This document shows positions 1,432-23,932 of a DNA stretch of 35,581 bases, one piece after another (the stretch's first letter is position 1; every line of letters starts with the position of its first letter). Location of the stretch: positions 1-35,581 of the IMG/VR virus record IMGVR_UViG_3300035180_003044. One strand, written 5' to 3'. The DNA is from a virus. The notes under the pieces were generated by a model. It saw only the letters and a list, made by a program, of their open reading frames with translations. It was not told where the DNA came from and made no database searches. A program made the translations under genes and the position numbers.

Positions 1432-2078
1432 TTATTAACATTATTATTAATGAAGTCTTCGAGAATTTTCACCTCGTAGTCTACGACTTGATTACCAAAA
1501 TCCGTTTGATCCTTTATCTCTTGTAGAACCTTGTCCTTTGAATGAGAGAAAAAGGTAGTATCCATATTACACTTATAATATGGTCGTTTTACAATTCTTG
1601 CGCAAACCAAAGCCCTAACCATATCATCAGATATGAATGACAAGTCTTGATAAGAATGCGGATCCTGTAGAAAATCTATAATTTTAAGTGGTCTGCCCTT
1701 TGATGACCAGCCCGCTGGCAGATCTGGGGCAAACGGATCGTCTGCTGGTAGAGTGACCGCCGCCTGTTGTAGCTGTACAACAGGCGTACCAACATTTTGG
1801 TTGGTGTTGTTGGTTGCTGGAGCAGGGTTCTCTGGCTTCGCAGCGAGTGAAATTATTTTCACGGAACGTTTATTGGTATCTAAATAAGTAAACTCAGATT
1901 GTCCAGCCGAGTTTTTAACTTCTGGCGGCAAATGAACAACCCACTCTGAAGCTTTAGGTCCAGAATACAGGTTTGCAAGTTCTTTCGCCTCGTCTCCTGC
2001 TTCTAAAAAGCTTTCAAATAACCGACAATAGTCAGTGGAGCCATTAACTATACCTAAAACTAAGAACAGCTCTTTCAT
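1428..2078 (-). CDS. Unknown protein with Pro/Asn/Gln-rich linker (216 aa)
   Basis: The frame is open from 2132, but the ATG at 2078 (MKELFLVLG) overlaps the upstream stop as ATGA and is the likely start. An N-terminal helical part of about 80 residues is followed by a low-complexity stretch rich in Pro, Ala, Asn and Gln (about residues 80-115), then a second folded part beginning with DDPFAPDLP. This two-domain-with-linker layout matches the neighbour upstream, which also has an Ala/Pro linker, so the two may work together. Function unknown. Confidence 0.65.
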   Translation of the reverse strand: MKELFLVLGIVNGSTDYCRLFESFLEAGDEAKELANLYSGPKASEWVVHLPPEVKNSAGQSEFTYLDTNKRSVKIISLAAKPENPAPATNNTNQNVGTPVVQLQQAAVTLPADDPFAPDLPAGWSSKGRPLKIIDFLQDPHSYQDLSFISDDMVRALVCARIVKRPYYKCNMDTTFFSHSKDKVLQEIKDQTDFGNQVVDYEVKILEDFINNNVNK

Positions 2079-2560
2079 ACATTGCTCTTTCGTACAAACA
2101 AAGATGGCTGTGTCTGAAACATCTGCGACCATAGATCATGGGGCGATTTAACTGGAGCGGGGGCGACTGGCGCCGTTTCTGGTGCCGTTGCTGGTGCCGT
2201 TGCTGGCGCCGTTGCTGCTGAAGTAACTGGAGCAATTGGAGCGACTGAACGAGCTGATGTTGCAGCACGTTTCTGTGCGTCATATTTCGCATCTAGGTCC
2301 CAAGAATCTGACAGGGGATGATAAAGAAGTGCCTCTACAACCTTTCCATCAGCCAAAGTTACGGGAATAGGAGTTCTAGCATAACTATTAACTTCAATCT
2401 CCGAAGAGAAAAGATGTCTAACCTGATCACGTACTTCCCTGTGACGTGCATGAGGCATTGACTCTTTCACCTTATTAGAAACGTCAAGGGCGGTAAACAT
2501 GACGCCCTGATTAACAAAATCACGGACAACTGACAAAACTGTATCATCTAAAGTAGGCAT
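2075..2560 (-). CDS. Unknown protein, winged-helix-like N-terminus and Ala/Pro repeat linker
   Basis: 161 residues with a good AAGGAG site seven to eight bases before ATG. Residues 1-50 predict as several short helices and resemble small winged-helix DNA-binding domains (inference, no family match made). Residues about 100-137 are an Ala-Pro-Thr repeat, encoded by a tandem repeat of a 12-base unit. The tail (LWSQMFQTQPS) looks like a short interaction motif. It is the first gene of the coupled string 2560 to 1. A weak promoter-like sequence (TTGCTT, 16 bases, TATGTT) lies in the 95 bases upstream. Confidence 0.65.
   Translation of the reverse strand: MPTLDDTVLSVVRDFVNQGVMFTALDVSNKVKESMPHARHREVRDQVRHLFSSEIEVNSYARTPIPVTLADGKVVEALLYHPLSDSWDLDAKYDAQKRAATSARSVAPIAPVTSAATAPATAPATAPETAPVAPAPVKSPHDLWSQMFQTQPSLFVRKSNV
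2160..2222 (-). repeat. Short tandem repeat coding an Ala/Pro linker
   Basis: The motif GGTGCCGTTGCT and close variants (GGCGCCGTTGCT, GGTGCCGTTTCT) recur several times in a row on the plus strand. They are read on the minus strand as repeating Ala-Pro-Ala-Thr. The repeat stays in frame, so it probably varies in length between relatives as a flexible linker. Confidence 0.7.
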
Positions 2561-3005: not shown

Positions 3006-3290
3006 TTATTTCTTTACAGAAGCACGAAGATCTTCTAGAGGATTGGTTGGCGGAATAACCACTTTACTCAAAAAGGTTTCGCTAACTTTAGATAGCGCGG
3101 TGTCAATGTCATTGGCATAAGCATTACAAACCACCTGTTTGCCCTTAGCAAACTTCGTACTATAACGCACTACCGACACATATACCTGACCATTTTTTAG
3201 ATGGGAAACAACAACGCCTGGGCTAGTAGCATCCTCTTTATATGCGAATGATACCGCCTTGCTCAACTTAACTATTAATGATTCTCCCAT
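3006..3290 (-). CDS. Small protein of unknown function (94 aa)
   Basis: The frame is open from further upstream, but the ATG at 3290 (MGESLIVKLSKAVSF) has AGGAG seven bases before it and lies 13 bases after the macro-domain stop, so it is the likely start. The sequence alternates beta-type segments (GVVVSHL, QVYVSVVRY) with basic residues and ends in SVKK. No cysteines or obvious catalytic motif. It follows the macro-domain gene closely and is probably co-transcribed with it. Confidence 0.65.
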   Translation of the reverse strand: MGESLIVKLSKAVSFAYKEDATSPGVVVSHLKNGQVYVSVVRYSTKFAKGKQVVCNAYANDIDTALSKVSETFLSKVVIPPTNPLEDLRASVKK

Positions 3291-3303
3291 GATATTCTCC
3301 TCT

Positions 3304-3783
3304 TTAATCTTCTGTTCGCCTATAAATGACGACCTTTGTTTCAAATTTTTCATTAACAAACCTCTCAAAATTCTTAAGAGTCCCAAAATAATACTCCCAA
3401 TCTCCGCCTCCAAGATTACATCCAATCTTCCAGGGAAAAGCGATACTTTCCAAGTCTGGAATTTTAGATATTTTGATTAGACATTTATGAAAGTATTCTT
3501 CTCTTGCTTTTGTTCCATCCAATTTTGATGTCGGAAATTTCGGTCTTCCAGGATAATGTTGAGCAAACATATTGATTACATATCGATTGTCAACTCCATT
3601 TCCAAAAATTTTTATTGTACCAACTGTATCCGGTTCCTCTCTATTCTCATAGGAGTTTGCAAAAGGGAAGGCATCAAAAATTGCTTTAGCGGTTCCGGTA
3701 GAATTCTTTGTCACACAATTACATTGATGTGCAATGTATTTTTCTTTTGAGTCAATTATGCTACCAGTTATGATTTCTATCAT
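3304..3783 (-). CDS. Macro-domain protein (ADP-ribose binding/processing)
   Basis: 159 residues, the size of a single macro domain. It reads MIEIITGSI, then AHQCNCV (residues 18-24), a Gly-Thr-Ala-Lys loop near 30-33, and AFPWKIGCNLGGGDW (115-129). The last matches the family's phosphate/ribose loop, usually IPxxIGCGLAGGDW. Macro domains of this type bind ADP-ribose and many hydrolyse ADP-ribose-1''-phosphate or ADP-ribosyl-protein esters. Asn22 and the GGGDW loop are present, so activity is plausible. The ATG is one base after the stop of the ATPase-like gene upstream, and a PARP lies just beyond it. The context therefore suggests removal or reading of ADP-ribose marks. Confidence 0.88.
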   Translation of the reverse strand: MIEIITGSIIDSKEKYIAHQCNCVTKNSTGTAKAIFDAFPFANSYENREEPDTVGTIKIFGNGVDNRYVINMFAQHYPGRPKFPTSKLDGTKAREEYFHKCLIKISKIPDLESIAFPWKIGCNLGGGDWEYYFGTLKNFERFVNEKFETKVVIYRRTED

Positions 3784-3784
3784 T

Positions 3785-5656
3785 TTAGTTAGATAGGTTT
3801 TGGTAAATTGATTTATTGCTAGTTATATGTGATTTTGATTTATAAGGAATCAATGCCACATATTCTCCTATTTTATATCCATTGTTTAGTAATTTATCAA
3901 AAGATAAACTATAGTTTGGATTTGGTGATTTATGATCTATATGATAGACTGGAATACCTCCACTATAGTTTGTGGATCTTGCCGCCACATTCATAATTGC
4001 CATTGCAAGGTCATCAGTGTTGCTTTGACCTATATTCCTATATTTTGGAATATAATATCCAGTAATAGATTGGATGCCCAATCTATCGCAAGCAATTTTA
4101 ATATCATTGCTATTTGGTTTTGTGCCAAATTTCACAAGTTTATAATCGAATCCCTTATTATTGTTTCCAACTCTTGTGCCAAGTTTTTTGCTATAAGCAC
4201 TGTATAATTCTTGCTTTTTGGACAAATCTTTACATTGTTCTAAATTTGCCGCCAGTTCTACGCTCTCATAGCAACCATAAAGTATGGGATTGATGTCATC
4301 ATCTTCTTTTGATTGTTTAAAATGTGCTAATCTTAGCATTGCTTGTATTTTTGTTGCAAATGAACAAGTACTTCCCCTATAATCATGCATAGCATATAGT
4401 GTGCGCAGAAAAGCTTTGCTAAACTCAACAGATCTGGATGCGGTTTGACATACTACCACAATAGTTTTATTGTTATCATGATCAAATCTTCTCCAATGAC
4501 CATCATCTCCCCAATCCCAAGAATTTTTCTGATCAACAGGTTCTATTCTGGTAATAGATCCATTATAACTTTCATTTATAAGTTTTAACAAAGTATCTGT
4601 ATTTTTAACATAATCTGGAAATCCAGACGCCAATCTTACTATAAGGAACTTTTTATTTGATTTTACAAAATCATCTATAATTGATTGTCCTTGCTCAGAT
4701 AAAAAATTAGCAGATGAGTCGTCAAAAAATGGCTCTGCCTCAAATACATTATTTTTTGATATCAAATATTTTGCGCCACAATAATTTGCTGGTGGACAAT
4801 ATGTTAAAATAGTTGGATTAACATCAGAAAATATCAGCTCCTCATTAGAGGCAGAAAATCCAATAAATTTTACATTTTTATTCGCTATGAAAGTTTTATA
4901 TAGATCGGCTATAATTTGCTTATAACCTGTCCCATAATCAGACTCATCATGCATGATGATAACTTCTTTACCATCATCTAATAATGACCTAATGTTTTTA
5001 ATATATTTATCTGATGATTTTTTCTGATCAACTAAGCAATATTCAATTCCATAAAACTTATATTCTTCTCTTTGAGACTTACAGTCTTTCCTATTAAGAG
5101 AAGAAAATACTTTATATTCTCTATTTCCAATAGACTGACCCCTAATAGCTATAGTTTGTTTTATAATTTTTTTACCAGATTTGATCGGAGCATGTACTGC
5201 TATAAATCTAGATTTTTCTAGAGCAGGCTCTAATTCATTTTTTACGAAATTATCAATGTCTTTATACTGATTTTCAATTTGGTAAAGATGTGTGAATTTG
5301 GGAGCAACTACTACTGCCGCTTTTATTTTGCTAAACGTTTTATTTCGCCTTGAATCTAGCCTAGATACTGCTGCACTCTGAAGCTCTAATAAAGAAGATT
5401 TGTCTTTTAACTCAAGAAGTTGAGTGCTTATTTTGTCAAAATAGTATTTAGCTTTTTTATGGTAAAGAGTTGAACTCATCGTATTTTCTGGGGTTTTAGC
5501 CGACTCAGCTATAAGTCCAGTAAGATATGAAGATACTATTATTCTATATTCCTCAGCACTGGCATTAAGTACCCCGCCATTATCACAAGCATGAGCAATT
5601 GCTGCTAACGCATATAATGAATTTTCTTTTTTAACTAATTTTAATAATTCATTCAT
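3785..5656 (-). CDS. SF2-helicase-like ATPase, divergent
   Basis: 623 residues. An alpha-helical N-terminal part of about 150 residues is followed by a P-loop-like APIKSGKK (156-163), a DExx-like IIMHDESDYG (about 233-242), GFSAS (266-270, like helicase motif III), and VVVCQTASRSVEF (about 400-412). KIQAMLRLAHF (436-446) sits where motif VI (QxxxRxxR) would be. The order fits a superfamily 2 helicase or translocase core, but the P-loop is unusual (SGKK rather than GKT/S), so ATPase activity is inferred. The macro-domain gene begins one base after its stop, implying coupled translation. A truncated relative of its P-loop region lies at 7774-7986. Confidence 0.65.
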   Translation of the reverse strand: MNELLKLVKKENSLYALAAIAHACDNGGVLNASAEEYRIIVSSYLTGLIAESAKTPENTMSSTLYHKKAKYYFDKISTQLLELKDKSSLLELQSAAVSRLDSRRNKTFSKIKAAVVVAPKFTHLYQIENQYKDIDNFVKNELEPALEKSRFIAVHAPIKSGKKIIKQTIAIRGQSIGNREYKVFSSLNRKDCKSQREEYKFYGIEYCLVDQKKSSDKYIKNIRSLLDDGKEVIIMHDESDYGTGYKQIIADLYKTFIANKNVKFIGFSASNEELIFSDVNPTILTYCPPANYCGAKYLISKNNVFEAEPFFDDSSANFLSEQGQSIIDDFVKSNKKFLIVRLASGFPDYVKNTDTLLKLINESYNGSITRIEPVDQKNSWDWGDDGHWRRFDHDNNKTIVVVCQTASRSVEFSKAFLRTLYAMHDYRGSTCSFATKIQAMLRLAHFKQSKEDDDINPILYGCYESVELAANLEQCKDLSKKQELYSAYSKKLGTRVGNNNKGFDYKLVKFGTKPNSNDIKIACDRLGIQSITGYYIPKYRNIGQSNTDDLAMAIMNVAARSTNYSGGIPVYHIDHKSPNPNYSLSFDKLLNNGYKIGEYVALIPYKSKSHITSNKSIYQNLSN

Positions 5657-5958: not shown

Positions 5959-5961
5959 TTA
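5736..5961 (+). pseudogene. C-terminal remnant of a LAGLIDADG-type homing endonuclease
   Basis: On the plus strand one frame from about 5736 gives a coding-like segment with LNLQNHLINELGSTKTQIKK and NANYSLRYCGRKQ. After a one-base shift near 5890 the next frame gives QILDYIYGKTNDHTRRDRKY. The two pieces together match the typical C-terminal end of phage and intron LAGLIDADG endonucleases (basic beta hairpin, then xLDYLYxxxxxxLxRKY). There is no start codon, no N-terminal half and no LAGLIDADG motif, so it is a dead fragment. It runs up against the 3' end of the PARP gene on the opposite strand. Confidence 0.6.
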
Positions 5962-7452
5962 TTTGGCTTGTGTTTCAAACTCGATGATATAACGCAAAAT
6001 ATGCTGCTGCTCACTTCCAGTAGCGTTATAAACCATAATCTCATCATTCATAACCCCACTTAATCCTGCCCTGGCAAAAACGCTATGAGCCGGACTAATG
6101 TTTTTCTTAGTATAAAATTGAGCCCCAGTCGCCATTTTATAGTTGCCATAAGCAACATCTGCTAAAAATAGGTACGCAGTCTTATTAGTTCCCGCTGCCC
6201 AATACGAACCTCTGACATCACAATAGTTCATTGACTTAGTACTATTAGTCGCAAAGTAAATAGCGTCTCCATACATCGAACCAGCATGAACAACGCCTGA
6301 TGGGCGAATTAAAAGACCCTTTGTCGTAATACCAATCATATTGGCGCGGCGAGTCCCATGCCAACCCGGACAAACATTTGCCCTCTTATAAAGTTCCTGA
6401 AGCTCTTTAGGAACGTCTGGACGCTCTTTTACAAGTTTGGCATAGGTTTCCGAGGGTTGGTGCTTACCGCACTGTTTGGCGATCTTCTCAGCGTTCGCAA
6501 GGAAATTCTTATCCTCACCATTACGGCTGAGCTTATAGATCTTATGAGTCTTTAGTTTGCCCAAAGACTGATGATTACCTGCTCGGGTCTCATGGACCAT
6601 TTTATCAAGCCACTTCCAAGTTGGATCGGCTGGATCAAGGTACTTAATATTTGAATTGAGCGTAGAATACTGTGAATCTACGTTACTACGCTTTGAAATA
6701 ACTCCCTGAACAGCCTTAGCATCGCCGAATACATCAAGAATATCGAATGCCTTATCAATCTTCTGATCGTCATCAAGACGAAGAACATCTGCATTAATAC
6801 GACCATAACCAAAGTTATGTGGAATGTTTGAATAATACAAATTGGTAAGTTTGTTTAACTCAATCACGTCTGGCTTGTTATTGTGGACAATCTTACGGGC
6901 TTCCTCAAGGATGTCTTTGCCTTTAGTGATTTGATCAAGTGAAAGCTGACCAAGCGGGCACTTTTTGGTGTCAAGGTTTAATTCAATAAATTCCTGAGTT
7001 ACGCCGAACCAAGTTCTAACAAGATCTCGAACTTCAGGATGAAGTTTGGAGTTATCCTCTTCCTCAACTTTGACGCCAGCCTTTTTAGCTGCCTCAATTG
7101 TAAGGGTATTTGCCTCAATCTTAGATTTTCCAATCTCAGAGCCAACATCTGCTTTAACTAACTTGACTTCTGCATAGCCTTTTTTAGTCTTGGACTTAAT
7201 AATTTTGTCAGCTTCTAATTCCGCCTGTGATTGACCAGAGCAAACTCGGTATTCTTTTGCCGCAGTTCCTCCAACTCGACCATATGCAGTATAGATTCTA
7301 GCTTCGCCGCTCTTTGCAACTTGCACTTCAAGATTGTAATACTTATTGTTGTTATTAACAATATCTGTAAAGTTAAGAGTTACTCTCTTCGTAACATCAA
7401 AACTAGCTGGGAATGAAGGTTCTGAGCCCTCTTTATAAGTCGGGATTGCCAT
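5959..7452 (-). CDS. Poly(ADP-ribose) polymerase-like protein (WGR, PRD and ART domains)
   Basis: 497 residues. Residues about 35-105 form a WGR domain (TAYGRVGG in place of the usual WGR). Residues about 140-290 match the helical PARP regulatory domain, including CPLGQLSLDQITKG. The C-terminal part is the ADP-ribosyltransferase fold. WHGT gives His365, AIYFATN gives Tyr399 and NDEIMVY gives Glu471; these align with the His-Tyr-Glu triad of PARP1, and TKSMNYC keeps the nearby Lys. The triad is intact, so transfer of ADP-ribose from NAD+, probably as chains, is likely. WGR domains usually sense nucleic-acid ends. It has an AAGGA ribosome site and its own promoter candidate. PARP1-type architecture is uncommon in phages (general knowledge, not searched). 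Confidence 0.93.
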   Translation of the reverse strand: MAIPTYKEGSEPSFPASFDVTKRVTLNFTDIVNNNNKYYNLEVQVAKSGEARIYTAYGRVGGTAAKEYRVCSGQSQAELEADKIIKSKTKKGYAEVKLVKADVGSEIGKSKIEANTLTIEAAKKAGVKVEEEDNSKLHPEVRDLVRTWFGVTQEFIELNLDTKKCPLGQLSLDQITKGKDILEEARKIVHNNKPDVIELNKLTNLYYSNIPHNFGYGRINADVLRLDDDQKIDKAFDILDVFGDAKAVQGVISKRSNVDSQYSTLNSNIKYLDPADPTWKWLDKMVHETRAGNHQSLGKLKTHKIYKLSRNGEDKNFLANAEKIAKQCGKHQPSETYAKLVKERPDVPKELQELYKRANVCPGWHGTRRANMIGITTKGLLIRPSGVVHAGSMYGDAIYFATNSTKSMNYCDVRGSYWAAGTNKTAYLFLADVAYGNYKMATGAQFYTKKNISPAHSVFARAGLSGVMNDEIMVYNATGSEQQHILRYIIEFETQAK

Positions 7453-7773: not shown

Positions 7774-7986
7774 TTAATAGATTCTGTCAAGTGCAGTAAT
7801 AAAAATATGTTCTCTTGTTGCCAATATTGTGCTTAAACATTGTACCATTATTCTTTTTCCAGATTTAACCTGGGCTTTTATAATTATAGATTTATTTTGA
7901 TCTATGATAGACCCAATATCATTAATACAAAATGAAAATAATAGTGGATAATCTTTATTAAATTTTACTACTTCAAGTTTTTCCAT
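7774..7986 (-). CDS. Truncated ATPase fragment related to the helicase-like gene
   Basis: 70 residues with a good AAGGA site. The central IIIKAQVKSGKRIMVQ resembles FIAVHAPIKSGKKIIKQ of the 623-residue ATPase at 3785-5656. The following segment (ATREHIFITALDR) lines up with its YKVFSSLNRK. The protein stops right after this, before the DExx region, so it holds only the P-loop strand and helix and cannot be an ATPase alone. It may be a decayed duplicate or a fragment left by recombination. A neighbouring reading frame continues for about 25 residues, so a frameshift is possible. Confidence 0.5.
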   Translation of the reverse strand: MEKLEVVKFNKDYPLLFSFCINDIGSIIDQNKSIIIKAQVKSGKRIMVQCLSTILATREHIFITALDRIY

Positions 7987-7994
7987 GTTAATCC

Positions 7995-8291
7995 TTAATT
8001 AGTTATTTTTGCATATAGTGCATCAATGAGTGCAACAATAAAAGATCCTGCTAAGCCCCATATGATTAATAGTTTAAAACTAAAATCAGTGCATTGCAAA
8101 GCATATATAATGTAACCGCAATGAAATCCGATACACCAAGGGCAAGTTAATAGATCGTAAAAAAATACCCCAATATATTTATTGGATAATAATTTATTTC
8201 TTGTCGCCCCCAAAATATTATATGGTCCAGATAAATTCCTAATAATATGTGATAGGCTATATATCGCTAATATGCATAAAGGTAATAACAT
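7995..8291 (-). CDS. DUF1360-like small membrane protein
   Basis: 98 residues from ATG at 8291 (a TTG four codons earlier is possible; GGAA precedes the ATG). Hydrophobic segments lie at about 1-18, 45-70 and 72-95. The motif LLTCPWCIGFHCGY matches the signature of DUF1360 proteins, which are phage and bacterial inner-membrane proteins of unknown role. The stop overlaps the ribosome site of the truncated ATPase fragment. Its ATG lies antisense to, and overlaps, the start of the plus-strand HNH gene. Confidence 0.65.
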   Translation of the reverse strand: MLLPLCILAIYSLSHIIRNLSGPYNILGATRNKLLSNKYIGVFFYDLLTCPWCIGFHCGYIIYALQCTDFSFKLLIIWGLAGSFIVALIDALYAKITN

Positions 8292-9133
8292 GAAAATTTC
8301 CAAAAAAATGTAAAAAGTGTAATCTTGTAAAAGAGATTAAGTCTTGTTTTTATTCTAGCATAAGACATACTAGAAATAATATCGTAGAATATTCATCAAA
8401 ATGTAAAGAATGTATTGAAAGTGAAAGGGTGTCTAAAAGAGATGTTAAGCGTATTTTTGATAGAAAAAGATATCAAGAGAACAAGGACACAATTAAACAA
8501 AAGAATTCTAATTATAGATCAAAAAATAGAGAGTCTGTCAATGCTAAGAAGCGAGAGCAATATAATTCGAATAAAGAAAAAATAAGCGAGCTGTTTAAAG
8601 AAAAATATGCAAATGATACAGTATTTGCAGAATCTAAAAAACAAAGAGAAAGAGTTAGGTATGAATCTAATAAGGATGAGATTAAAAAGAGAGTTATGCA
8701 ATATAGGAAAAATAACAAAAAGAAAGCAAATGATCATTTGACTAATCGTAGGCTTAATGATCCTAAATTTAAATTAAGACATGATATTAGTGTTAGAATT
8801 AGAAATGGATTACACTCTTTAGGAATTTCTAAAAATAAAAAGTCCATTACCACAAGCTTGCCTTATTCAATTTCTGAGCTTAAAATTCATTTGGAAAAAC
8901 AGTTTGAGCCATGGATGAGTTGGTTAAATCATGGTTCATATAGAGTTGAGTTATGGAATGATAATGATCAGTCAACTTGGACTTGGCAAATTGATCATAT
9001 AATTCCACACTCTACTTTTAAGTATTCGTCTATGGATGATGAAGAATTTAAAAAGTGTTGGTCTTTGGATAATTTAAGACCATTATCTGCAAAACAAAAT
9101 ATTTTAGATGGCACTTCAAGAAAAAGACACTAA
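8290..9133 (+). CDS. HNH homing endonuclease, 5' end frameshifted
   Basis: One of few plus-strand genes. The C-terminal half has the HNH core: TWQIDHIIPHSTF, then CWSLDNLRPLSAKQN. The middle (about residues 60-140) is Lys/Arg/Glu-rich and helical, typical of DNA-contact linkers. An ATG at 8290 with AAAGG upstream starts MKISKK; removing one A from the A7 run at 8302-8308 continues as CKKCNLVKEIKSC, and KCKECIESERV follows, giving a four-cysteine zinc finger usual at the N-terminus of this family. Without that correction translation would need the GTG at 8429 and lose the finger. It is codirectional with no neighbour, as expected for a free-standing mobile gene. Confidence 0.8.
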
Positions 9134-13035: not shown

Positions 13036-14919
13036 TCATTTTACCAAATCCAAAAACTCTTCCTCTGAAATTAACTTCGTTCCAAGCTTCCTGGCAGCAA
13101 CCGCTTTAGAGCTTGTGCTATTAGGATCAGCAATAATAAGGTAGGTCAAACCTTTACCAACGGAGGATTTGACATCTGCGCCTACATCTGCCGCCATCTT
13201 CTCCAAAACTGACCGCTTATTCTTCATTGAACCAGTAAAGCAGACCGATTTGCCAGACAAAACGCCAACAACCTTCTCTTTAATCTCTACTCCGGCATTC
13301 AAAATATCAAGAATCAATTGCTGATTAGCCAACAAGCCGTCAGCAAGCGACTTTGCCTTAGTAGGACCGACACCAGGGACCTGCTCAAAATGAACGGCTT
13401 GGAGTTGACCAAATTTGGCTAATGTGTCGCAACCCGCACTCATGATGCTTTTGATGGTGCTCTGACCAATCATAGGAATACTAAGAGCCCCTAAGAAGAC
13501 TTCCAGAGGAATTGTCTTGCTCGCCCAAAGCGTATCATAACACTTTTGGGCGGATTTTTTGCCCATTCGATCAATGCTGGCGAGATCATCAACCGATAGT
13601 TTGTACAAATCGGCAACATTCTTAACCTTACCAGACTCAACAAGACGCTCAATCAAGGTATCTCCCCATTCAAGGATGTTCAATTCGCTAATCCAGTTCT
13701 TAATTCTACCAATTACCTGGGCGGGGCACTTTTCCGAATTGGTGCAAACCAGATTTTCTCCTTGCATTTCCGTTTTGCCCAAACAGGCAGGGCAGTGCAT
13801 CGGCGCTTCCGCAATGGTTCCAACTCCTTTGACCAGCTCCTCAATGCGGGGAATAACGTCATTGGCACGAGCAACCAGAACAGTTGCCCCGACATCCAAA
13901 CCAAGATCTTCAATATAAGCCAGATTGTACAAACTGGCTCGCGTAATAACAGCTCCTACCAAAATAACTGGATCTACAGTTGCTACAGGGGTCAAGCGAC
14001 CACTATTCCCAACCTGCCAAACAATATCGCGGATGATGGATTCACGGGTTTCGTTGTCAAATTTGAACGCAATGGCTCCTAAAGGTCGGAGATCCTTATC
14101 GCCCTTTGCCATTTGTTTGGGCAGATCATTCAAACGAATGACCAGACCATCGATATCATAGTCGAGTTTTTCTCGTTTGGTATCTTGATAATCGCGCCAG
14201 TGAGCATTAACCTCACTAGCATTCTTTTTAACCCAATAATTGGGTGTTCTGACCCCTTGTTTAGCAAGCCATTTGAATTGTTCAACTTCAGTTTTGAAAT
14301 CCACATCACCCAAAGCCTGGTAAAAAAGAATGTCTAGCTTTTCTACGCCCACACCATCCAATCTCTTACAGGTTCCAGAAGCCGCATTACGCGGATTCGC
14401 CTTCTCTGGAAAGAACTTCTTATGGTTGCTCTTGGTCATGATGATTTCGCCGCGTAACGATCCGGTGAATTTATCAACCAGCTTAGATTGAACACCGCCC
14501 ATCTTAACCACGTTGACAGTTACGTCTTCGCCAGTTTCGCCATCACCTCGAGTAATTGCTTGGACAAGATCGCCTTCTTCATAGATAACTTCAATAGAAA
14601 GACCATCAAGCTTCTCGGTAACAAAAAGCTCCTCATCTTTCGCTGTGTCGTTTGCCCACTTTTCAAATTCTACCGGAAGATTGACCTTATCCAAGGAACC
14701 CATGGGGATTTGGTGCTTTGCCTTTTTCCATTCTGAGTTAACTGGCGCGCCAATAGCGGTAATTGCCTTGTTCTTTGGATCAAGAACTCGCAATTCGTCC
14801 ACCCAAGCATCATAAACCTTATCAGTTACAACAAGTTTAACCTGGCAATTTGGATTGTAATAGGTGTCTCGTGCCTGAGAGATCTTGTCTGATAGCTCTT
14901 TGATTCTGTTTTCGCTCAT
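13036..14919 (-). CDS. ligA: NAD-dependent DNA ligase
   Basis: 627 residues, slightly shorter than bacterial LigA (about 670). The adenylation site EKLDG gives Lys103. GETGEDVT and NPRNAASG are family motifs. An OB fold follows, then a zinc finger with Cys376, Cys379, Cys392 and Cys398, helix-hairpin-helix repeats (about 420-545) and a C-terminal BRCT domain starting GKSVCFTGSM (about 550-627). All parts are present and the protein is probably active, sealing nicks with NAD+ and releasing NMN and AMP. Phages more often use ATP ligases, so an NAD+ enzyme fits the NAD theme here, and NMN could feed the phage NMN adenylyltransferase. A strong promoter lies about 95 bases upstream. Confidence 0.97.
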   Translation of the reverse strand: MSENRIKELSDKISQARDTYYNPNCQVKLVVTDKVYDAWVDELRVLDPKNKAITAIGAPVNSEWKKAKHQIPMGSLDKVNLPVEFEKWANDTAKDEELFVTEKLDGLSIEVIYEEGDLVQAITRGDGETGEDVTVNVVKMGGVQSKLVDKFTGSLRGEIIMTKSNHKKFFPEKANPRNAASGTCKRLDGVGVEKLDILFYQALGDVDFKTEVEQFKWLAKQGVRTPNYWVKKNASEVNAHWRDYQDTKREKLDYDIDGLVIRLNDLPKQMAKGDKDLRPLGAIAFKFDNETRESIIRDIVWQVGNSGRLTPVATVDPVILVGAVITRASLYNLAYIEDLGLDVGATVLVARANDVIPRIEELVKGVGTIAEAPMHCPACLGKTEMQGENLVCTNSEKCPAQVIGRIKNWISELNILEWGDTLIERLVESGKVKNVADLYKLSVDDLASIDRMGKKSAQKCYDTLWASKTIPLEVFLGALSIPMIGQSTIKSIMSAGCDTLAKFGQLQAVHFEQVPGVGPTKAKSLADGLLANQQLILDILNAGVEIKEKVVGVLSGKSVCFTGSMKNKRSVLEKMAADVGADVKSSVGKGLTYLIIADPNSTSSKAVAARKLGTKLISEEEFLDLVK

Positions 14920-15540: not shown

Positions 15541-15983
15541 AAATAATGTTTAATCCTTCTGGACCCTGATTTTTAATCCCCGTATATCTATCTTTAACTG
15601 ATTGAACAGGTCCTTTACCCTTATTTTCTAGTTTGGGCAATTGTAATTCTTCTCCAAGAATTCGTGCTAGTTCCTCTGGAGTAAATTCAGCCATATAGCC
15701 ATGTTCCCCAGAATCTTTGCCAGCCTTTCCTTTACCTTCTCCCTGCTGAGGGTCTCCGCCAACCGGATCACCCTCATTGCCATCTCCCTGACCAACTCCG
15801 CCCTTACCCGTTCCAAAAAACAAATCGAGGCAAATATATCCTGTCTACAGGAACTGAGATAATCTTTTTTCCTTGCTGCCCCAAGATATTATCGGAACTA
15901 GCATATTTACAAAGATTATTCTTTACTTTGTTACGAATGATATTTTTGAATCGATTAAGGTCGGAGTTGATCTTATATAACAT
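15512..15983 (-). pseudogene. DUF444 (YeaH/UPF0229-like) N-terminal fragment, frameshifted
   Basis: ATG at 15983 overlaps the Thg1-like stop as TAATG. It reads MLYKINSDLNRFKNIIRNKV, then LGQQGKKIISVPVDRIYLPR, matching the DUF444 N-terminus. One extra T in the T6 run (15815-15820) throws the frame; with T5 it continues FGTGKGGVGQGDGN, a glycine-rich segment, and EFTPEELARILGEELQLP, all family features. It then stops after about 156 residues, whereas DUF444 proteins are about 400 residues and carry a von Willebrand A-like part, which is missing. In bacteria DUF444 works with PrkA kinase and SpoVR; neither is in this window. Probably a non-functional remnant. Confidence 0.7.
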
Positions 15984-16729
15984 TATAACAATTTATTAAT
16001 GTAGTTATGATCTTGTGAAAAGATCGGAATTTCATTATCCACAATCCACTCAGAGCGGCGAGCTTTAATTGCTTCGCCAGTTTTGGTATTGTATCCCAAT
16101 TTATCGACAGTAGCTTTAATTATACAGCGACCTCGTTTTTGAGAGGTGGGACAATCATTCCAGTTGATTCCTTTTTGAAAGATCATTTCCTGCAATTCTG
16201 AATTGTTTTTATCCGTGCATTGCGCATGTGAGTATAGGGACCTCGCCAACATCTGGACTGAGTTTCTGGTAGCGTCTTGCTGGCGCCATAATAAGTAGTT
16301 GTTGACATCTTCCTTTGGAATAACAAAAGCGCGGCTATCAAAAGTAGCCAATTTACCTGCCCCAAAAATACGATGGGAAAGTGATGTGAAAACAGCAGAT
16401 GCCATGCCGGCAGATACGCTTACCATCTTCTGAAGATTGTTCTCAAACCACGCTTGCGTATCTAAAGATTTGTAGTTGTTAATTAACACAGATATTTCAT
16501 CTGACTGAACGTAGGCTATTTGTGCGCCCTGAATATTACGACACAGGTAAATTGCAGTCTCATTCATAACATCAACAAGACTTTGATCAACTGGCTTCTG
16601 AAGCCCTTTTGTATAGGTGTGAAAATGACACCCGTCAACCCTGATAATGACGGGCAATCTTGTTGGTAATTTTTGACGAAATGAATTTTCATAATTTTTC
16701 ATTCTATCGCCTAATGAGTCATTTGACAT
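15983..16729 (-). CDS. Thg1-like 3'-5' polymerase (tRNA-His guanylyltransferase family)
   Basis: 248 residues. VIIRVDGCHFHTYTKG (27-42) and YVQSDEISVL (73-82) carry the metal-binding Asp32 and Asp77/Glu78 of the family. SRAFVIP, then NYLLWRQQDATRNSVQML are also typical. Thg1-like proteins add nucleotides to RNA 5' ends in the reverse direction, either G-1 of tRNA-His or repair of truncated tRNA 5' ends. In bacteria and phages they are usually the repair type (general knowledge). Here it may restore tRNAs damaged during infection. AAAGG lies about 10 bases before ATG. Confidence 0.92.
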   Translation of the reverse strand: MSNDSLGDRMKNYENSFRQKLPTRLPVIIRVDGCHFHTYTKGLQKPVDQSLVDVMNETAIYLCRNIQGAQIAYVQSDEISVLINNYKSLDTQAWFENNLQKMVSVSAGMASAVFTSLSHRIFGAGKLATFDSRAFVIPKEDVNNYLLWRQQDATRNSVQMLARSLYSHAQCTDKNNSELQEMIFQKGINWNDCPTSQKRGRCIIKATVDKLGYNTKTGEAIKARRSEWIVDNEIPIFSQDHNYINKLL

Positions 16730-16776
16730 GGCGTGAAAAACCTTTCCTATTAAACTAAATAATTTATTATATATTT

Positions 16777-17534
16777 ATGATAACAAAAGAAATTTTAACT
16801 GGATTAATGCTTGGTAATGGATGTTTAGAGCTGGCAAAAATGCATCTTTAAGAATTGCTAGAAAAAGAATGGATAGTAACTATATTGACTATCATGTAAA
16901 CATTTTTAAATATTTGGGAGCAAAAAGAAGTGATGGCAAAATTTATGATAAACGTACTGATAAGGTATGCGGAAGAACAATGCTTCACACTACAGTTAAT
17001 ATGTTTTTACAAAAATACATAATAAATGGTATCCAGATGGATATAAGATCGTTCCTAAAAATATACAGATAACTCCAACCACATTAGCGACATAGATTGC
17101 TGATGATGGGTCTATCATTAGAAGAAAAAGAAATTATTCTGTAAAAATAGCAACACACAGATTTTCTAAAACTGAAGTAGAATTTCTAGTAGATCTTCTT
17201 AAAATACATTTGATTTAGACTTCAAAATCTATCAAGATAACTCTGGCAAATCGCCACATTAGTTTATAATGCTTACTAATAAATCTAGCGTCAAAAAACT
17301 AATAGAAATTATATCTCCAGTTTTTCCTGCTGGAATGGAAAGAAAATCTTCTCTATGGAAAAGTAATTTACTTGATACAAAAAAATATATCCAAAGTGCA
17401 AATTTTGCAATTCTAATAATATCAGTAAAAATGGTAAAACAATAGTGGGAAACCAAAATTTCTATGTAAAGAATGCAGAAGGAAATTTATTATTTCTTAA
17501 TTTCTTTCAATTCAAATTTGTTTGGCGCAAATGA
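16777..17534 (+). pseudogene. LAGLIDADG homing endonuclease, multiply broken
   Basis: Starts MITKEILTGLMLGNGCLE, a LAGLIDADG motif whose catalytic Asp is Asn. Frameshifts near 16830 and 17030 follow. The pieces SLRIARKRMDSNYIDYHVN and GAKRSDGKIYDKRTDKVCGR are typical of the family. The second motif reads TTLAT-TAG-IADDGS, with an amber where Trp normally stands, and the tail VKKLIEIISPVFPAGMERKS ends near 17534. Opposite in strand to all neighbours. Clearly dead: frameshifts, nonsense codon and a lost catalytic Asp. Confidence 0.85.
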
Positions 17535-17572
17535 TTTTGCTAAGTATAATTTATACATCTTTCACCTCGCTA

Positions 17573-18052
17573 TTAAACCATGCCAGGGTTTTTCCAAGAA
17601 AATTTCCATTTAGCAATATCTGCTTTAGCTCCCATGTAATATGCGCGATATGCATTTACAGCATCTTGGCGTTTACACTCATCAGGCATACATTGAACAA
17701 ATGGAGTGTGAGCCGCCCAAAAAATCTGAATGATACTCAAATTTCGTGCGATTCGGCGTCCATAACATGGATCAAATCTGCACACGTATGGAATTTGTCA
17801 TATCTCAGCGTATACTCTTCGCACATATGAGTGGTATGACACATCAACCATGCCCAATTTGCCGGATCGGCAGCAACCCAGCGGGTACAGGGATGATTTG
17901 CGTAGGTGATCTTATATGGACCGGGAAAAACCGCGTTCAGTAGAACCTGTTGAAATAATTTGAGTGCTTTCTAAGATCATCTTCACTACATGTTTGTCAC
18001 ATAAATAACGAGCAGCGTCACCAGGATACTCGTCTAATACAAAGATATTCAT
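17573..18052 (-). CDS. Conserved phage-type protein, two compensating frameshifts
   Basis: ATG at 18052 overlaps the upstream stop as ATGA. It reads MNIFVLDEYPGDAARYLCDK and HVVKMILESTQII; then another frame gives FPGPYKITYANHPCTRWVA and TTHMCEEYTLRYDKFH; then the first frame returns with TPFVQCMPDECKRQDAVNAY and YMGAKADIAKWKF. First and last frames agree and total length is 160 codons, so one base is missing near 17950 and one is extra near 17735. The layout resembles a conserved phage protein of unknown function that I know by sequence pattern (CDKHVVKM, NHPC, CEEYxxRY, QCMPDE). Function not known. Confidence 0.65.
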
Positions 18053-18297
18053 TGCTTAACAATCTCATAAAGTTCTTCCCAATCAGAAGAATTTGTTCCC
18101 GGGGTATCAAATTGATGACCAGAACCTCCCCAACCATCATCAAAATTAAATCCATACCATTGTTTACTAAATTTTCCAGTAAAAAACTCTCCGCCTATTT
18201 TTGCTCGATAGCGTTTGCCTAAACGTATATCTGGATGGTCATGACCATTACCTTTTGATAGGTCAATTGGAACTAATTTAGGTTCTTTCTTTTTCAT
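18049..18297 (-). CDS. Small protein of unknown function (82 aa)
   Basis: Basic start MKKKEPKLVPIDLSKGNGHD, then RYRAKIGGEFFTGKFSKQWY and a Gly-rich acidic part, DDGWGGSGHQFD. Predicted as a small beta-rich fold. The ATG overlaps the peptidyl-tRNA hydrolase stop as ATGA. No family recognised. Confidence 0.65.
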   Translation of the reverse strand: MKKKEPKLVPIDLSKGNGHDHPDIRLGKRYRAKIGGEFFTGKFSKQWYGFNFDDGWGGSGHQFDTPGTNSSDWEELYEIVKQ

Positions 18298-18737
18298 TTT
18301 AATACTTGAAGCCTCTTTACTAGTTTAGAAACATTGCTTTTTTTCATTGGCCATAAACCAATGACAGTTTCAGAGTTGGGGGCGATTTCAGTTAAACCGG
18401 CGTCAACAACAATGACATCTAAATTGTTGTTGAGTTCTAGTTTGAGTTTAGCCCACTCTTTATCATCGGCTTTTAGCACTACTTTGCGAAATGAAGTATT
18501 AAGCCATTCAGTAAAAATCTGGCGATAATGAATGATTGATTCCGTAGACCAACCATAAATCTCTTTTTGATCTAAATCTTTATAATTCAGCAAAAGCATT
18601 TGCGCTGCATGGGCGCATTGAGCCGCTGTTTTACCAATACCCATTCCCAATGACTCTCTAACAATAAAATACATAACAATAGGGTCTTCTTGATTAGCCC
18701 TTTTCGCAATAGCCTCTGGTGTGTTGTGATCTTCCAT
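18294..18737 (-). CDS. Peptidyl-tRNA hydrolase, Pth2 type
   Basis: 147 residues. VMYFIVRESLGMGIGKTAAQ and CAHAA (about 21-45), SFRKVVLKAD (about 82-91) and VVDAGLTEIAPNSETVIGLW (about 110-129) match the archaeal/eukaryal Pth2 family, including the Lys of MGIGK and the acidic VDAG. It frees tRNA from peptidyl-tRNA that has dropped off the ribosome. Bacteria normally use the unrelated Pth1, so this is a phage-specific acquisition. The ATG has GAGG seven bases upstream and a TTGACA promoter candidate. It heads a string that continues to the Thg1-like gene's side of the window. Confidence 0.9.
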   Translation of the reverse strand: MEDHNTPEAIAKRANQEDPIVMYFIVRESLGMGIGKTAAQCAHAAQMLLLNYKDLDQKEIYGWSTESIIHYRQIFTEWLNTSFRKVVLKADDKEWAKLKLELNNNLDVIVVDAGLTEIAPNSETVIGLWPMKKSNVSKLVKRLQVLK

Positions 18738-20028: not shown

Positions 20029-22614
20029 TTATTCGCCAAACAATAATTTCTTTTTCTCTTCCTCTAAAGCTGGATCTGGAAGCTTATTCCACACCATAAA
20101 CAATTCTTTTTTTGCCCTCGTTATAGCAACATAATGAATGTTCAACTCTTCTTGCGAAGAAGATCTTAAAGTATCTGCCAATACGAAAACCCTATCAGAT
20201 TCTTTGCCTTTGATACGATGCACGCTACTAAATAAAACTATTTTTGACTCATCATTGTCTTGAAATAATTTATCAATATTGACTTTGACCTCCTCCAAAG
20301 AGGAAGCTCCTTCACATAAATTTTCCATGCATTCCACTTTATCAGAAATAGATTCGGTGCTGGCTTTTGGATATTTAGCTAGAAGTCTTTCTTTTTCTTC
20401 TTTTTCCCAGTTCTTGAGCCATTTCAATAAATCAGTAATATTTTTCTTTTTTGATTTCTTAATTAGAAACATTAGGTTCGCACCAATGTCTCTTCCTAGA
20501 ATGTTTGCAGGAATACCATTTTTTAGAAATCTCAGGCAATGTTTAATAAGCGGAGCGTTGAGACGGCTCACGACATACGAGCCCGGCTTTGCCATTTTTA
20601 TAAGATCATGTATGGCAATTTCTGTAATTGTACCATCAGGAGACTTTTCAAATGGCTCAATATCGGGCACGAATTTCTTTGCCTCTTCAACTACAAGTTT
20701 TGGGCATCTATAGCAAATTGGCAGTGGAAGTTCGGTGGGCTTCAGTCGATCCCTTAGATTATCCAAAACTTTAGAATCGGCGCCACGCCAAGAATATAAT
20801 GCCTGATAATTATCAAGCACCGCAATAACTCTTCCTGACGGCTGCTTGACCGCAGAGAGCGCTAGCTCAATCTGACATTTATTCAGATCCTGAGATTCAT
20901 CAATGAAAACATAATCATATTTTCCTGGATTGAGTCGGTAAACAAAAGGAAACCAAATCATATCATTAAAGTCAATGACATTTGTTTTTTCTTTGCAAGA
21001 TCGCAAAGCCCTAGAAACATATTTGATAAAATCTGGAAGTTCTACCTCACATAGATCTATTCCATATTCAAATATCATTTCTTCAATGCCTGTAGGAGTG
21101 TCGATTAAGTTTGCCTTACAAAAAGCAACTGTTTTGCAAATATTGTCAATTAAATCGAAGTTATCTTTCGGGTGTGTGAAAAAATTAGATACAATCTCCC
21201 AACACTTATTATCATCTAGCTCTATATTATTGCCGAATTTTAACTTAACGGCACGATATCCTAAAGAATGAAGTGTTAAGCATTCGACATAAGATCCGAG
21301 TTTAGATTTAAGCTCTTCCTGAATGGACTTATTGAAAGCACAAAATAAAGATTTTTTGCCCTTTGGAATATACTTAGATCCCTCAACAAGTGAAGACGTA
21401 TTATGTGTAATGGTATAATCACCCAATAAAAATCTACCATCTCCATCTAATGTAAATCCATAATATTCACCAATACCAATTGGTGATATATTAAATCCTG
21501 TGCAAAGATGATTTTTTATCTGCTTTCTTTTAATAGACTGTTTTCTTTTAATAGACTGCTTACGTTTTAATAGACATGGTATTTGAGATAAATCTCCAGA
21601 CAAATTAACTGCCCAAAAATCTGTTTCATAATTTATACTTTTTATTTTTCCACGATGTTTAGAGATATAGGCAGCTATTCCAAGACTTCGAGCTAAGAAG
21701 GCATATTGCTCAGCTAATTTTTTATATATTGTTGAGATTCTAATAGAATTATTAGAGCCTCCCCCATCAGAATCAATGATTCCAGCTAAAAGTCTTAATC
21801 TATTATGTTTTGAATTTACTAAATATTCATTTGGTATAATTTTTTCTTTACCACTAACACATTTAGTGTTTAAATAAGTTTTAAAATAATTTCTTGCGAC
21901 TCTTGGATTAAAAGAGCCTATCTTGCCAAGATTAAATGATATCCTATAGGCTTTGGATTTTTCTTTAGCTACTGTAGCAGTTAATCCATAATATGGGGCT
22001 TGTTTTACACAATAATCTATTATCTCTTGATCTGCGGATGTAATATTTGCTGTTGTCCTTGTTCCACCACCAATCCATAATCCAATTAAATATGGATCAT
22101 ATTCAATTTTTTGATCATAAAAATTGACCCCAGTTTTTAATAGCTTCCAGTTTTTACTTATATTTTTTAAATGTTTGTTTTTTGCCAAAAAATTATTAAC
22201 AGAAATATCTATTATTTCACCTTTGCCATGATTACTTTTAATCAAAGTAAGTATATGATCAGTATTACAAACCCAGCTTTCGCCTTTTGTCGGGATTATT
22301 CTAACCAAATCTCCAACACCAGAATTTACAGAAAGTACTTTTCTAGGTTTAGAGTCTGGTCCCATTAATAAATCATGCTCAGTAACCAGCTCTACTGGCT
22401 TAATGTCGCCATTATATAATAATACTGGTGTTCCTTTACCAAGACATTTAGCGCTGCCAGCTCTAGCAATAACAACCGTATGTCCTGTTCCTCGGGCAAT
22501 ATCCTTAAAAATGTCTTTCTGATATGGCGACCAATCTCTTTTGATGGCAGGCTTAATAATATGAGAATTATCTGGCTTTTTTGGCGGGAATTTATTTGAC
22601 TTCTTGAATACCAT
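20029..22614 (-). CDS. UvrD/Rep-like SF1 DNA helicase containing an intein
   Basis: 861 residues, of which 349 are an intein. The spliced protein is about 512 residues. Walker A is split by the intein: VVIARAGSAK, then TSSLVEG. YVFIDESQDLN (motif II), DNYQALYSWRGAD (motif III), VHRIKGKESDRVFVLAD (motif V) and HYVAITRAKKELFMV (motif VI) are all present, so an active 3'-5' helicase is expected after splicing. Role: phage DNA replication, recombination or repair. The ATG lies inside the end of the upstream small gene. The host exteins are otherwise normal. Confidence 0.93.
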   Translation of the reverse strand: MVFKKSNKFPPKKPDNSHIIKPAIKRDWSPYQKDIFKDIARGTGHTVVIARAGSAKCLGKGTPVLLYNGDIKPVELVTEHDLLMGPDSKPRKVLSVNSGVGDLVRIIPTKGESWVCNTDHILTLIKSNHGKGEIIDISVNNFLAKNKHLKNISKNWKLLKTGVNFYDQKIEYDPYLIGLWIGGGTRTTANITSADQEIIDYCVKQAPYYGLTATVAKEKSKAYRISFNLGKIGSFNPRVARNYFKTYLNTKCVSGKEKIIPNEYLVNSKHNRLRLLAGIIDSDGGGSNNSIRISTIYKKLAEQYAFLARSLGIAAYISKHRGKIKSINYETDFWAVNLSGDLSQIPCLLKRKQSIKRKQSIKRKQIKNHLCTGFNISPIGIGEYYGFTLDGDGRFLLGDYTITHNTSSLVEGSKYIPKGKKSLFCAFNKSIQEELKSKLGSYVECLTLHSLGYRAVKLKFGNNIELDDNKCWEIVSNFFTHPKDNFDLIDNICKTVAFCKANLIDTPTGIEEMIFEYGIDLCEVELPDFIKYVSRALRSCKEKTNVIDFNDMIWFPFVYRLNPGKYDYVFIDESQDLNKCQIELALSAVKQPSGRVIAVLDNYQALYSWRGADSKVLDNLRDRLKPTELPLPICYRCPKLVVEEAKKFVPDIEPFEKSPDGTITEIAIHDLIKMAKPGSYVVSRLNAPLIKHCLRFLKNGIPANILGRDIGANLMFLIKKSKKKNITDLLKWLKNWEKEEKERLLAKYPKASTESISDKVECMENLCEGASSLEEVKVNIDKLFQDNDESKIVLFSSVHRIKGKESDRVFVLADTLRSSSQEELNIHYVAITRAKKELFMVWNKLPDPALEEEKKKLLFGE
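21400..22446 (-). other. Intein (Cys57-Asn405) with LAGLIDADG domain, inserted in Walker A
   Basis: The intein begins CLGKGTPVLLYNGDIKPVEL directly after the Walker A Lys and ends DYTITHN before Thr, giving a Cys1/Asn-end/Thr+1 splice site. TDHILTL (block B) is also present, so splicing residues look complete. The homing domain has YLIGLWIGGGTR and LRLLAGIIDSDGGG. In the first motif the normal catalytic Asp (GDG) is Gly (codon GGT instead of GAT), while the second keeps Asp. The endonuclease is therefore probably crippled or only nicks. Walker A is a known hot spot for intein insertion. Confidence 0.93.
21521..21575 (-). repeat. 18-19-base tandem repeat inside the intein
   Basis: Three near copies of TGCTTTCTTTTAATAGAC (plus strand), read as KRKQSI-KRKQSI-KRKQI on the minus strand. 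The insertion adds a basic stretch between the endonuclease and the C-terminal splicing block. It looks like recent slippage. Confidence 0.7.
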
Positions 22615-23023: not shown

Positions 23024-23932
23024 TTATCTCCTAATAAAATCTTTATTCGATCTACTGTACAACTGGCTGTCCAAACTAACTAATTTGTCAAAATCTTCAA
23101 CAGAATATAATTCTTTATTGATGGCTTTCATGCCAGACTTTGCCCCAAACAAAGCCCCAACAATTGCTGCCGTAGTGTCTGTATCTCCACCGGCTTTGAT
23201 TGCAGCCACAACAGCCTCGTGATAGTTGTCAAACTTAAGAAAACAATAAATAGCAGATGGAACCGTTTCTGCCACATTGGCTTTTGTGCCAAGAACCCTT
23301 AAAACTTGTGGAGGAGTAATATTTGACTCTAACATGGAATCAAGACTTGATAATGTTCTTTTAATTTTACTATCTGGTAGTTTTTCTGTTATTCTGGGGA
23401 GGATACCTTCTAAATCATGATTAACTGCTAGAGCAGCAGCCATACCAATGGCAATAGCTCCCGCCTCAGCCTCTTCTGAAAGATGAGTAATAGCACTGTC
23501 AATTTTTAGAATATTGACTAAGGAATACAAATCGTTTCTAAAAAACACTCCAAATGGAGCCGCCCTCATGGCAGTACCATTGCCCTGAGATCCAACTACG
23601 CCAGACTCAGACCAGTGCTTACCAGCAAGTAAATTATTGACAGCCTGAAGTGTGGTTTTACCATAACCACGAGCAGCCCCAGAAGTAATCCAATTCACAT
23701 ATCGTTTTGCCAAATCATCTGGATTGAACCCTGAGCTTTCAATCAACGATTCGGAAACCATGAGACTCATCTGAGTATCATCAGAATATTGTCCAGGAAG
23801 CAATTTATGATGTTCGCTCCCAAGATAGGTGATGCCATCCCAATCAATTAGCGGCTGGTAATTTACTAATTTAGTTTCAAAGGGAACGCCTAGGGCGTCT
23901 CCAATTGCCGTTCCCAAAAGAACATTGCACAT
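23024..23932 (-). CDS. ADP-ribosylglycohydrolase (DraG/ARH family)
   Basis: 302 residues, standard for the family. GTAIGDALGVPFE (8-20), YSDDTQM (about 49-55), GNGTAMRAAPFG, THLSEEAEAGA and AGGDTDTTAAIVGAL supply the binuclear Mg site and the ADP-ribose loops. The SDDT and GGDTDTT motifs are intact, so hydrolysis of ADP-ribosyl-Arg/Ser bonds, or of poly(ADP-ribose), is plausible. With the PARP and macro genes this gives both writer and erasers in one window. ATG overlaps the stop of the small gene upstream as TAATG. Confidence 0.94.
   Translation of the reverse strand: MCNVLLGTAIGDALGVPFETKLVNYQPLIDWDGITYLGSEHHKLLPGQYSDDTQMSLMVSESLIESSGFNPDDLAKRYVNWITSGAARGYGKTTLQAVNNLLAGKHWSESGVVGSQGNGTAMRAAPFGVFFRNDLYSLVNILKIDSAITHLSEEAEAGAIAIGMAAALAVNHDLEGILPRITEKLPDSKIKRTLSSLDSMLESNITPPQVLRVLGTKANVAETVPSAIYCFLKFDNYHEAVVAAIKAGGDTDTTAAIVGALFGAKSGMKAINKELYSVEDFDKLVSLDSQLYSRSNKDFIRR

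Follow-up and report, generated by a model that had tools for sequence, protein, structure and literature searches.

As usually taught, the PARP response to DNA breaks is a eukaryotic one. In the crystal structure of PARP2 with DNA, the phosphorylated end is held by Trp151, Lys130, Lys183 and Tyr201, Arg153 and Asn127 touch the DNA and bridge to Gly314 of the helical regulatory domain (HD), and Asn129 is required for signal transfer to the HD (PMC8190142). Bacterial PARPs with a WGR-HD-ART architecture, from Herpetosiphon and Clostridioides difficile CD160, are DNA-dependent in vitro, and bacterial PARPs have been described with a PARG-type eraser (PMC5966428). PARPs have also been reported in phages, in 2014 (PMC4245714), 2021 (PMC7824862) and 2022 (PMC9503650). 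Within the open-access literature, which leaves most subscription journals and preprints outside it, we found no function for any phage PARP or for the gene set described below.

Here, we analyze a PARP gene and its surroundings in a linear 35.6-kb IMG/VR record (hereafter the window, the whole stretch of 35,581 nucleotides). An earlier sequence-only reading implied that a PARP1/2-like architecture was new to phages. We abandoned this claim given the earlier papers and the 15 phage records that match the window PARP, five of them across at least 93% of the query, including one (MW394390) whose annotation already lists WGR, regulatory and catalytic domains. Sequence data had already revealed PARPs in bacteria and phages, and the window lineage offers concrete partners to test, a macrodomain protein and a small protein that we call u2075. 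The lineage could reveal the purpose of PARPs in organisms without chromatin, and through it the phage NAD+ genes, currently under study for counter-defence, gain a predicted writer of macromolecular ADP-ribosylation.

Domain architecture and catalytic residues

The PARP open reading frame opens with ATG, preceded by a Shine-Dalgarno-like AAGGA, and encodes WGR, HD and ART domains that each match a Pfam family above cut-off (Table 1), as the sequence-only reading had proposed. H365, Y399 and E471 occupy exactly the positions given there for the H-Y-E triad, and the CPLGQLS segment said to be kept in the HD lies at residues 165–171; the HD also contains IPHNFG, in which G215 corresponds to PARP2 Gly314. 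Across 46 sequences the triad His and Glu are invariant and the Tyr is present in 45, the sole exception (L009) probably reflecting an alignment shift beside an IY pair. The proposed distinction from the T4 Alt/Mod enzymes was likewise borne out: their R-S-E triad is absent, the H-Y-E residues stand instead, and Pfam returns PARP families only.

Table 1. Features of the window, with positions on the 35,581-nucleotide stretch and residue numbers of the encoded proteins
Feature	Position	Strand	Description
PARP gene	5959–7452	-	497 aa, WGR - helical regulatory domain (HD) - ART
WGR domain	7165–7386	-	aa 23–96; Pfam PF05406, E 6.9e-16, above cut-off
Helical regulatory domain (PARP_reg)	6673–7050	-	aa 135–260; Pfam PF02877, E 1.7e-20, above cut-off
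ART catalytic domain	5962–6606	-	aa 283–497; Pfam PF00644 (PARP) over 283–458, E 2.1e-17, above cut-off
H365 codon	6358–6360	-	ART triad
Y399 codon	6256–6258	-	ART triad
E471 codon	6040–6042	-	ART triad
ART-domain insertion	6382–6501	-	aa 318–357, helical by prediction (model); missing in most other phage PARPs (alignment A1)
Macrodomain protein	3304–3783	-	159 aa; phrog_335, E 4.5e-19; BT1257 structure, E 3e-4
u2075	2075–2560	-	161 aa; conserved N-terminal domain, linker, C-terminal QPSLF
u3006	3006–3425	-	occupies slot where most relatives carry NADAR
623-aa ORF	3785–5656	-	between PARP and macrodomain; slot variable in relatives
u7995	7995–8303	-	small, membrane-like, upstream of PARP; DUF1360-like (weak); also in PARP-less relatives
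NAD+-dependent DNA ligase LigA	13036–14919	-	phrog_3869, E 3.7e-158; conserved flanking block
ADP-ribosylglycohydrolase (ARH/DraG superfamily)	23024–23932	-	Pfam PF03747, E 1.8e-68; MJ1187, E 3e-25; ARH3, E 1e-19; conserved in relatives
Nicotinamide phosphoribosyltransferase NAMPT/NadV	29177–30580	-	NF006629, 615 bits, above cut-off
NadM-Nudix bifunctional NMN adenylyltransferase	31160–32194	-	NF003791, 441 bits, above cut-off

Searches of the PDB with phmmer returned PARP1 and PARP2 at E ~1e-26, aligned in two segments, one covering WGR and HD and the other the ART core. Three features of the PARP1/2/3 type are present, namely an ART fold with the H-Y-E triad, an HD fused to the ART, and a WGR domain with DNA-end contact residues, and on sequence and model we assign the window protein to the PARP-superfamily (H-Y-E) ADP-ribosyltransferases of the DNA-dependent PARP1/2/3 type. 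The H-Y-E triad fits either poly- or mono-ADP-ribosylation.

With PARP1, PARP2 and PARP3 (clade 1) the window protein shares the WGR-HD-ART order, the triad, the DNA-end and WGR-HD signalling residues and a full-length fold match. In contrast to them it is only ~21% identical (structural alignment), carries Tyr for the WGR Trp, lacks zinc fingers, has a shorter acceptor loop and a helical insert, and does not keep Tyr201. The short acceptor loop is evident in an alignment of all phage PARPs (A1), which was too diverse for use in collection scans. The WGR triplet, Y57-G58-R59 (YGRVG), and the architecture are those of the bacterial PARPs of Herpetosiphon and C. difficile CD160, whereas the eraser side differs, the window coupling a small macrodomain protein to its PARP and encoding an ARH-type hydrolase upstream. 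The sequence-only reading was right that the WGR Trp is Tyr. We rejected a reading of this residue as an anomaly, as Tyr is the commonest residue at this position in bacterial PARPs (PMC5966428) and is found in 42 of the 46 sequences compared here.

DNA-end residues and predicted structure

We mapped the PARP2 residues onto the window PARP through the phmmer alignment. The DNA-contacting and signalling residues Asn127, Asn129, Lys130, Arg153 and Lys183 correspond to N34, N36, K37, R59 and K88, which are invariant across the 46 sequences, and Trp151 corresponds to Y57, a position that is aromatic in all 46. Gly314 corresponds to G215, with Gly at this position in 21 of 25 lineage members. The 5'-phosphate binder Tyr201 is not retained (S105 in the window), which counts against a DNA-end reading. 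Because the DNA-contact residues are invariant and bacterial PARPs of the same architecture are DNA-dependent (PMC5966428), activation of the window PARP by DNA ends appears well founded by homology, and at this level the earlier suggestion of a WGR-based sensor stands: the PARP2 DNA-end and HD-signalling residues are invariant and two bacterial homologues respond to DNA. Nothing observed points specifically to phage genome ends, the other target of sensing that it raised.

An AlphaFold2 model built with 46 diverse viral and bacterial homologues (m4c35e032b709) reached a pLDDT of 85 and a pTM of 0.79; it replaces a model from 11 close homologues with a pLDDT of 60 and a catalytic core that could not be relied on. 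The 50 best Foldseek matches of the model in the PDB are PARP1 and PARP2 only, led by WGR-HD-ART complexes with DNA breaks that match over the full length (8g0h, E 2.5e-28), and 4opx aligns with a TM-score of 0.69 by query and 0.75 by target. The overlay on PARP1 and PARP2 called for by the sequence-only reading thus gives a predicted ART fold and a full-length match to DNA-bound PARPs.

The same comparison yields some evidence for an enzyme of another kind, a DNA-activated NAD+ glycohydrolase whose ART domain mainly consumes NAD+, or a regulator whose WGR domain binds something other than DNA ends. The equivalent of Tyr201 is lost, the ART domain carries the lineage insert (residues 318–357) and a short acceptor loop, and WGR domains also occur in non-PARP proteins (PMC7824862). 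However, the DNA-contact residues are invariant, E471 occupies the position of the Glu needed for transfer in PARPs, and phage NAD+ salvage enzymes would be odd partners for an enzyme that depletes NAD+. We regard this alternative as the least probable of those considered.

A jumbo phage lineage and genes inherited with the PARP

Although no packaging or capsid gene was seen in the 35.6-kb window, the placement in a phage is supported through its relatives, the large ones of which carry the terminase large subunit. Two IMG/VR scans gave a lineage set of about 25 distinct viral contigs, several of them 250–481 kb long, whose PARPs are 66–76% identical to that of the window (52% for L009). The terminase large subunit was detected in 7 of 8 large lineage contigs tested, with a weak Pfam match for some and a clear PHROGs match on the two tested, and belongs to phrog_675 (E 5e-61). 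On this sequence evidence we take the lineage, through its large relatives, to be one of uncultured jumbo phages. The nearest isolate terminase is only 27% identical, and the lineage is therefore without a close isolate in the collection.

PARP is under strong purifying selection in the lineage, with a dN/dS of ~0.05–0.10 for the closest pairs, a value that is approximate since dS exceeds 1. Homologues in ~25 contigs, the low dN/dS and the invariant triad His and Glu together indicate that the reading frame is not a chance one. Two members differ from the rest. In L009 (8118–9602) the PARP is 52% identical to that of the window, yet LigA is 80% and the macrodomain 67% identical, and the catalytic-Tyr loop is altered. 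In L010 (9962–10513) the PARP frame stops after ~160 residues and the remainder was not found nearby, consistent with a disrupted gene, an insertion or an assembly fault.

Wherever lineage contigs reach far enough, the locus order is LigA, then a phosphoesterase (MPE), u10667, Dam and variable genes, followed by u7995, PARP, further variable genes, the macrodomain gene and u2075; LigA had no match at one lineage locus (L045). This setting, with the order of PARP, macrodomain and u2075 held in about 25 distinct contigs, is apparently undescribed. The sequence-only reading described the PARP architecture correctly and missed the coupled macrodomain and u2075 genes as well as the NAD+ and ADP-ribose genes around them.

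The macrodomain protein appears divergent, its match to Pfam PF01661 (E 6e-4, 20.2 bits against a gathering threshold of 22) falling below cut-off. The C terminus of u2075 is QPSLF, or one substitution of it (QPSIF or QTSLF), in 22 of the 24 relatives that are complete. This tail resembles QxxLF, the motif through which bacterial proteins bind the sliding clamp, and we treat it as a candidate clamp motif and a lead. Of 27 loci, 23 have a NADAR gene between macrodomain and u2075 (L051 only a fragment of one); the window and three relatives lack it there. The window has u3006 in this slot, and because the called frame overlaps the macrodomain gene, its true start is probably downstream. Upstream of PARP, a 70-aa frame (7774–7986) looks by eye like what is left of a second copy related to the 623-aa ORF by paralogy, with a similar K-S-G-K Walker-A-like segment.

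The ADP-ribosylglycohydrolase and NAMPT genes usually lie upstream of PARP. A homologue of the ADP-ribosylglycohydrolase occurs in 12 of 14 contigs of at least 120 kb, in two of these only as a ~40% identical paralogue elsewhere, and NAMPT occurs in all six contigs of at least 130 kb in the first set and in 6 of 9 PARP-positive contigs in the terminase-selected set described below. The presence of both NAMPT/NadV and NadM, above NCBIfam cut-offs, recalls NARP2-type phage NAD+ salvage; unlike that type, the window genes share a contig with a PARP and ADP-ribose hydrolases, and NAMPT is not strictly tied to PARP. Elsewhere in the window, Thg1 and PTH2 (15983–18737) form an RNA-repair and translation-rescue pair that also lies beside LigA in relatives, and a UvrD-like helicase frame (20029–22614) probably carries an intein, with Hint and LAGLIDADG homing-endonuclease domains.

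Coupling among these genes was assessed in 18 contigs of at least 112 kb that were picked by terminase and not by PARP, many of the PARP-less ones possibly being fragments. PARP is present in 9 of the 18 and u2075 in the same nine; the macrodomain gene is present in those nine and also in G024, a contig that ends 2.5 kb away from it, so that a PARP could lie beyond that end. Three contigs, G021 (361 kb), G022 (349 kb) and G025 (452 kb), keep the colinear block of LigA, phosphoesterase, u10667, Dam and u7995 together with a HaeII-like gene, and despite this intact flanking block PARP, macrodomain and u2075 are all absent from them. G022 and G025 are apparently the same phage over this region, giving two distinct phages. 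The macrodomain and u2075 genes are thus tied to PARP while LigA, u7995 and NADAR are not, a pattern drawn from about two independent gain or loss events, not from a large-sample statistic. As PARP-less relatives exist, the module is dispensable.

On these grounds one candidate partner was weakened and another given up. The position of LigA near PARP is weakened as evidence of coupling, as the LigA block persists without PARP. NADAR is not an obligate partner, being missing at its usual position in the loci noted above and present without PARP in G022 and G025, as NAMPT is too. In these two contigs the NADAR gene (L197 in G022; L198, 7726–8163, in G025) sits in the stretch that elsewhere holds PARP and macrodomain.

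Co-inheritance of an ADP-ribosyl writer with a macrodomain gene parallels DarTG and the phage sirtuin-macro pairs (PMC9503650), and by this analogy the locus could serve toxin-antitoxin-like superinfection exclusion, in which the PARP would be a toxin that responds to an incoming phage's DNA ends and the macrodomain would be its antitoxin. In contrast to those pairs the writer here is a PARP, and the genes are not adjacent in one operon: variable genes spanning 0.1–3 kb usually separate PARP from macrodomain, unlike a tight toxin-antitoxin operon. A third gene, u2075, is coupled equally, and the phage makes DNA ends itself. We consider this explanation improbable, if slightly less so than the NAD+ glycohydrolase or non-DNA regulator above.

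Possible function and comparison with other phage PARPs

The reading we favor, at a probability of about 0.5, is that the window PARP is a DNA-end-activated, reversible ADP-ribosyltransferase that serves DNA-break handling by the phage. The WGR domain would bind 5'-phosphorylated DNA ends or nicks, and this binding would unfold the HD and open the ART site to NAD+. The PARP might then modify itself, proteins at the break or the DNA end with ADP-ribose, as mono or poly. The macrodomain protein encoded downstream would be the likeliest dedicated partner to read or remove the mark, the ADP-ribosylglycohydrolase and, in most relatives, NADAR may help with it, and NAMPT and NadM could recycle nicotinamide to NAD+. 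The likeliest use would be on breaks and ends of phage DNA handled during replication. Of this explanation, DNA activation, the direction of the macrodomain reaction, the substrates and the benefit are the parts that we infer. Phage macrodomains are generally proposed to act on soluble ADP-ribose derivatives (PMC9503650), and the window macrodomain could by analogy do so instead, a point against its role as dedicated partner. LigA, which is retained when PARP is absent, is not specific support for break handling.

A wider proposal is distinctly more tentative: that jumbo phages carry a reversible ADP-ribosylation module triggered by DNA breaks, comprising the PARP writer, a dedicated macrodomain and u2075 (possibly tethered to the clamp by QPSLF), which is gained and lost as a unit, acts where phage DNA is broken or at its replication ends, perhaps with those DNA ends as the substrate, and would be a viral counterpart of eukaryotic PARP signalling.

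The phage PARPs of Cellulophaga phi4:1, Xanthomonas XacN1, Stenotrophomonas RAS14 and Klebsiella 05F01/FBKp34 resemble the window protein in combining WGR-HD-ART with [YF]GRVG, but they are only 25–30% identical to it and fall on separate tree branches, and they have no LigA/macrodomain/u2075 block. In the tree, phage PARPs are polyphyletic and form at least three groups. The window lineage (100/99) lies near Myxococcota, Aneurinibacillus and human PARP2, with support (82/88) too weak to name a donor; the Klebsiella, Xanthomonas and Stenotrophomonas phage PARPs group together (97/95); and Cellulophaga phi4:1 and LR756500 fall with Bacteroidota and Clostridia (100/100). One lineage contig (G014) carries, ~10 kb away from its first PARP, a second complete one with WGR-HD-ART (L193, 1480–2880), which the tree places as sister to Myxococcota PARPs (100/100), a possible host hint.

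This patchy, polyphyletic distribution is what would be expected of accessory conflict genes, and it bears on a further explanation, in which the phage uses the PARP for host takeover or anti-defence: DNA ends that host nucleases (restriction, CRISPR, RecBCD) create would recruit the PARP, which would ADP-ribosylate those nucleases or other host proteins, while the macrodomain and ADP-ribosylglycohydrolase protect phage proteins. Host proteins are common targets of phage ARTs (PMC9503650), one ART, AcrIF11, works as an anti-CRISPR (PMC12421852), and the nearby NAMPT, NadM, macrodomain and NADAR genes fit a conflict region. Yet across about 25 contigs the PARP keeps its synteny and evolves under strong purifying selection, which would be unusual for a fast-turnover anti-defence gene. 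Host takeover seems to us the strongest of the competing explanations, though an unlikely one.

Ligase and macrodomain genes recur near PARPs of other phage groups, convergences that were seen after looking and without controls, and that are suggestive. In phi4:1 a single small gene separates the PARP from an ATP-dependent DNA ligase, after which comes a DNA methyltransferase. In LR756511, a 595-kb phage (L017, 7860–14664), the gene directly after the PARP encodes a different ATP-dependent ligase, and a u2075-like gene and then one for an ADP-ribosylglycohydrolase follow within 6 kb. Both ligases are non-homologous to LigA and lie next or next but one to the PARP. In the Klebsiella phages a macrodomain gene lies 2.5–5.5 kb upstream of PARP. 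Neither ligase nor macrodomain was seen near the PARPs of XacN1, RAS14 and L067–L070 in the annotation, the ORF lists and the few ORFs scanned (those of L067–L070 without a Pfam scan), which weighs against the favored reading. In Stenotrophomonas phage RAS14, a reading frame ~4 kb from the PARP (L020, 10092–10859) appears by eye to encode a further ART.
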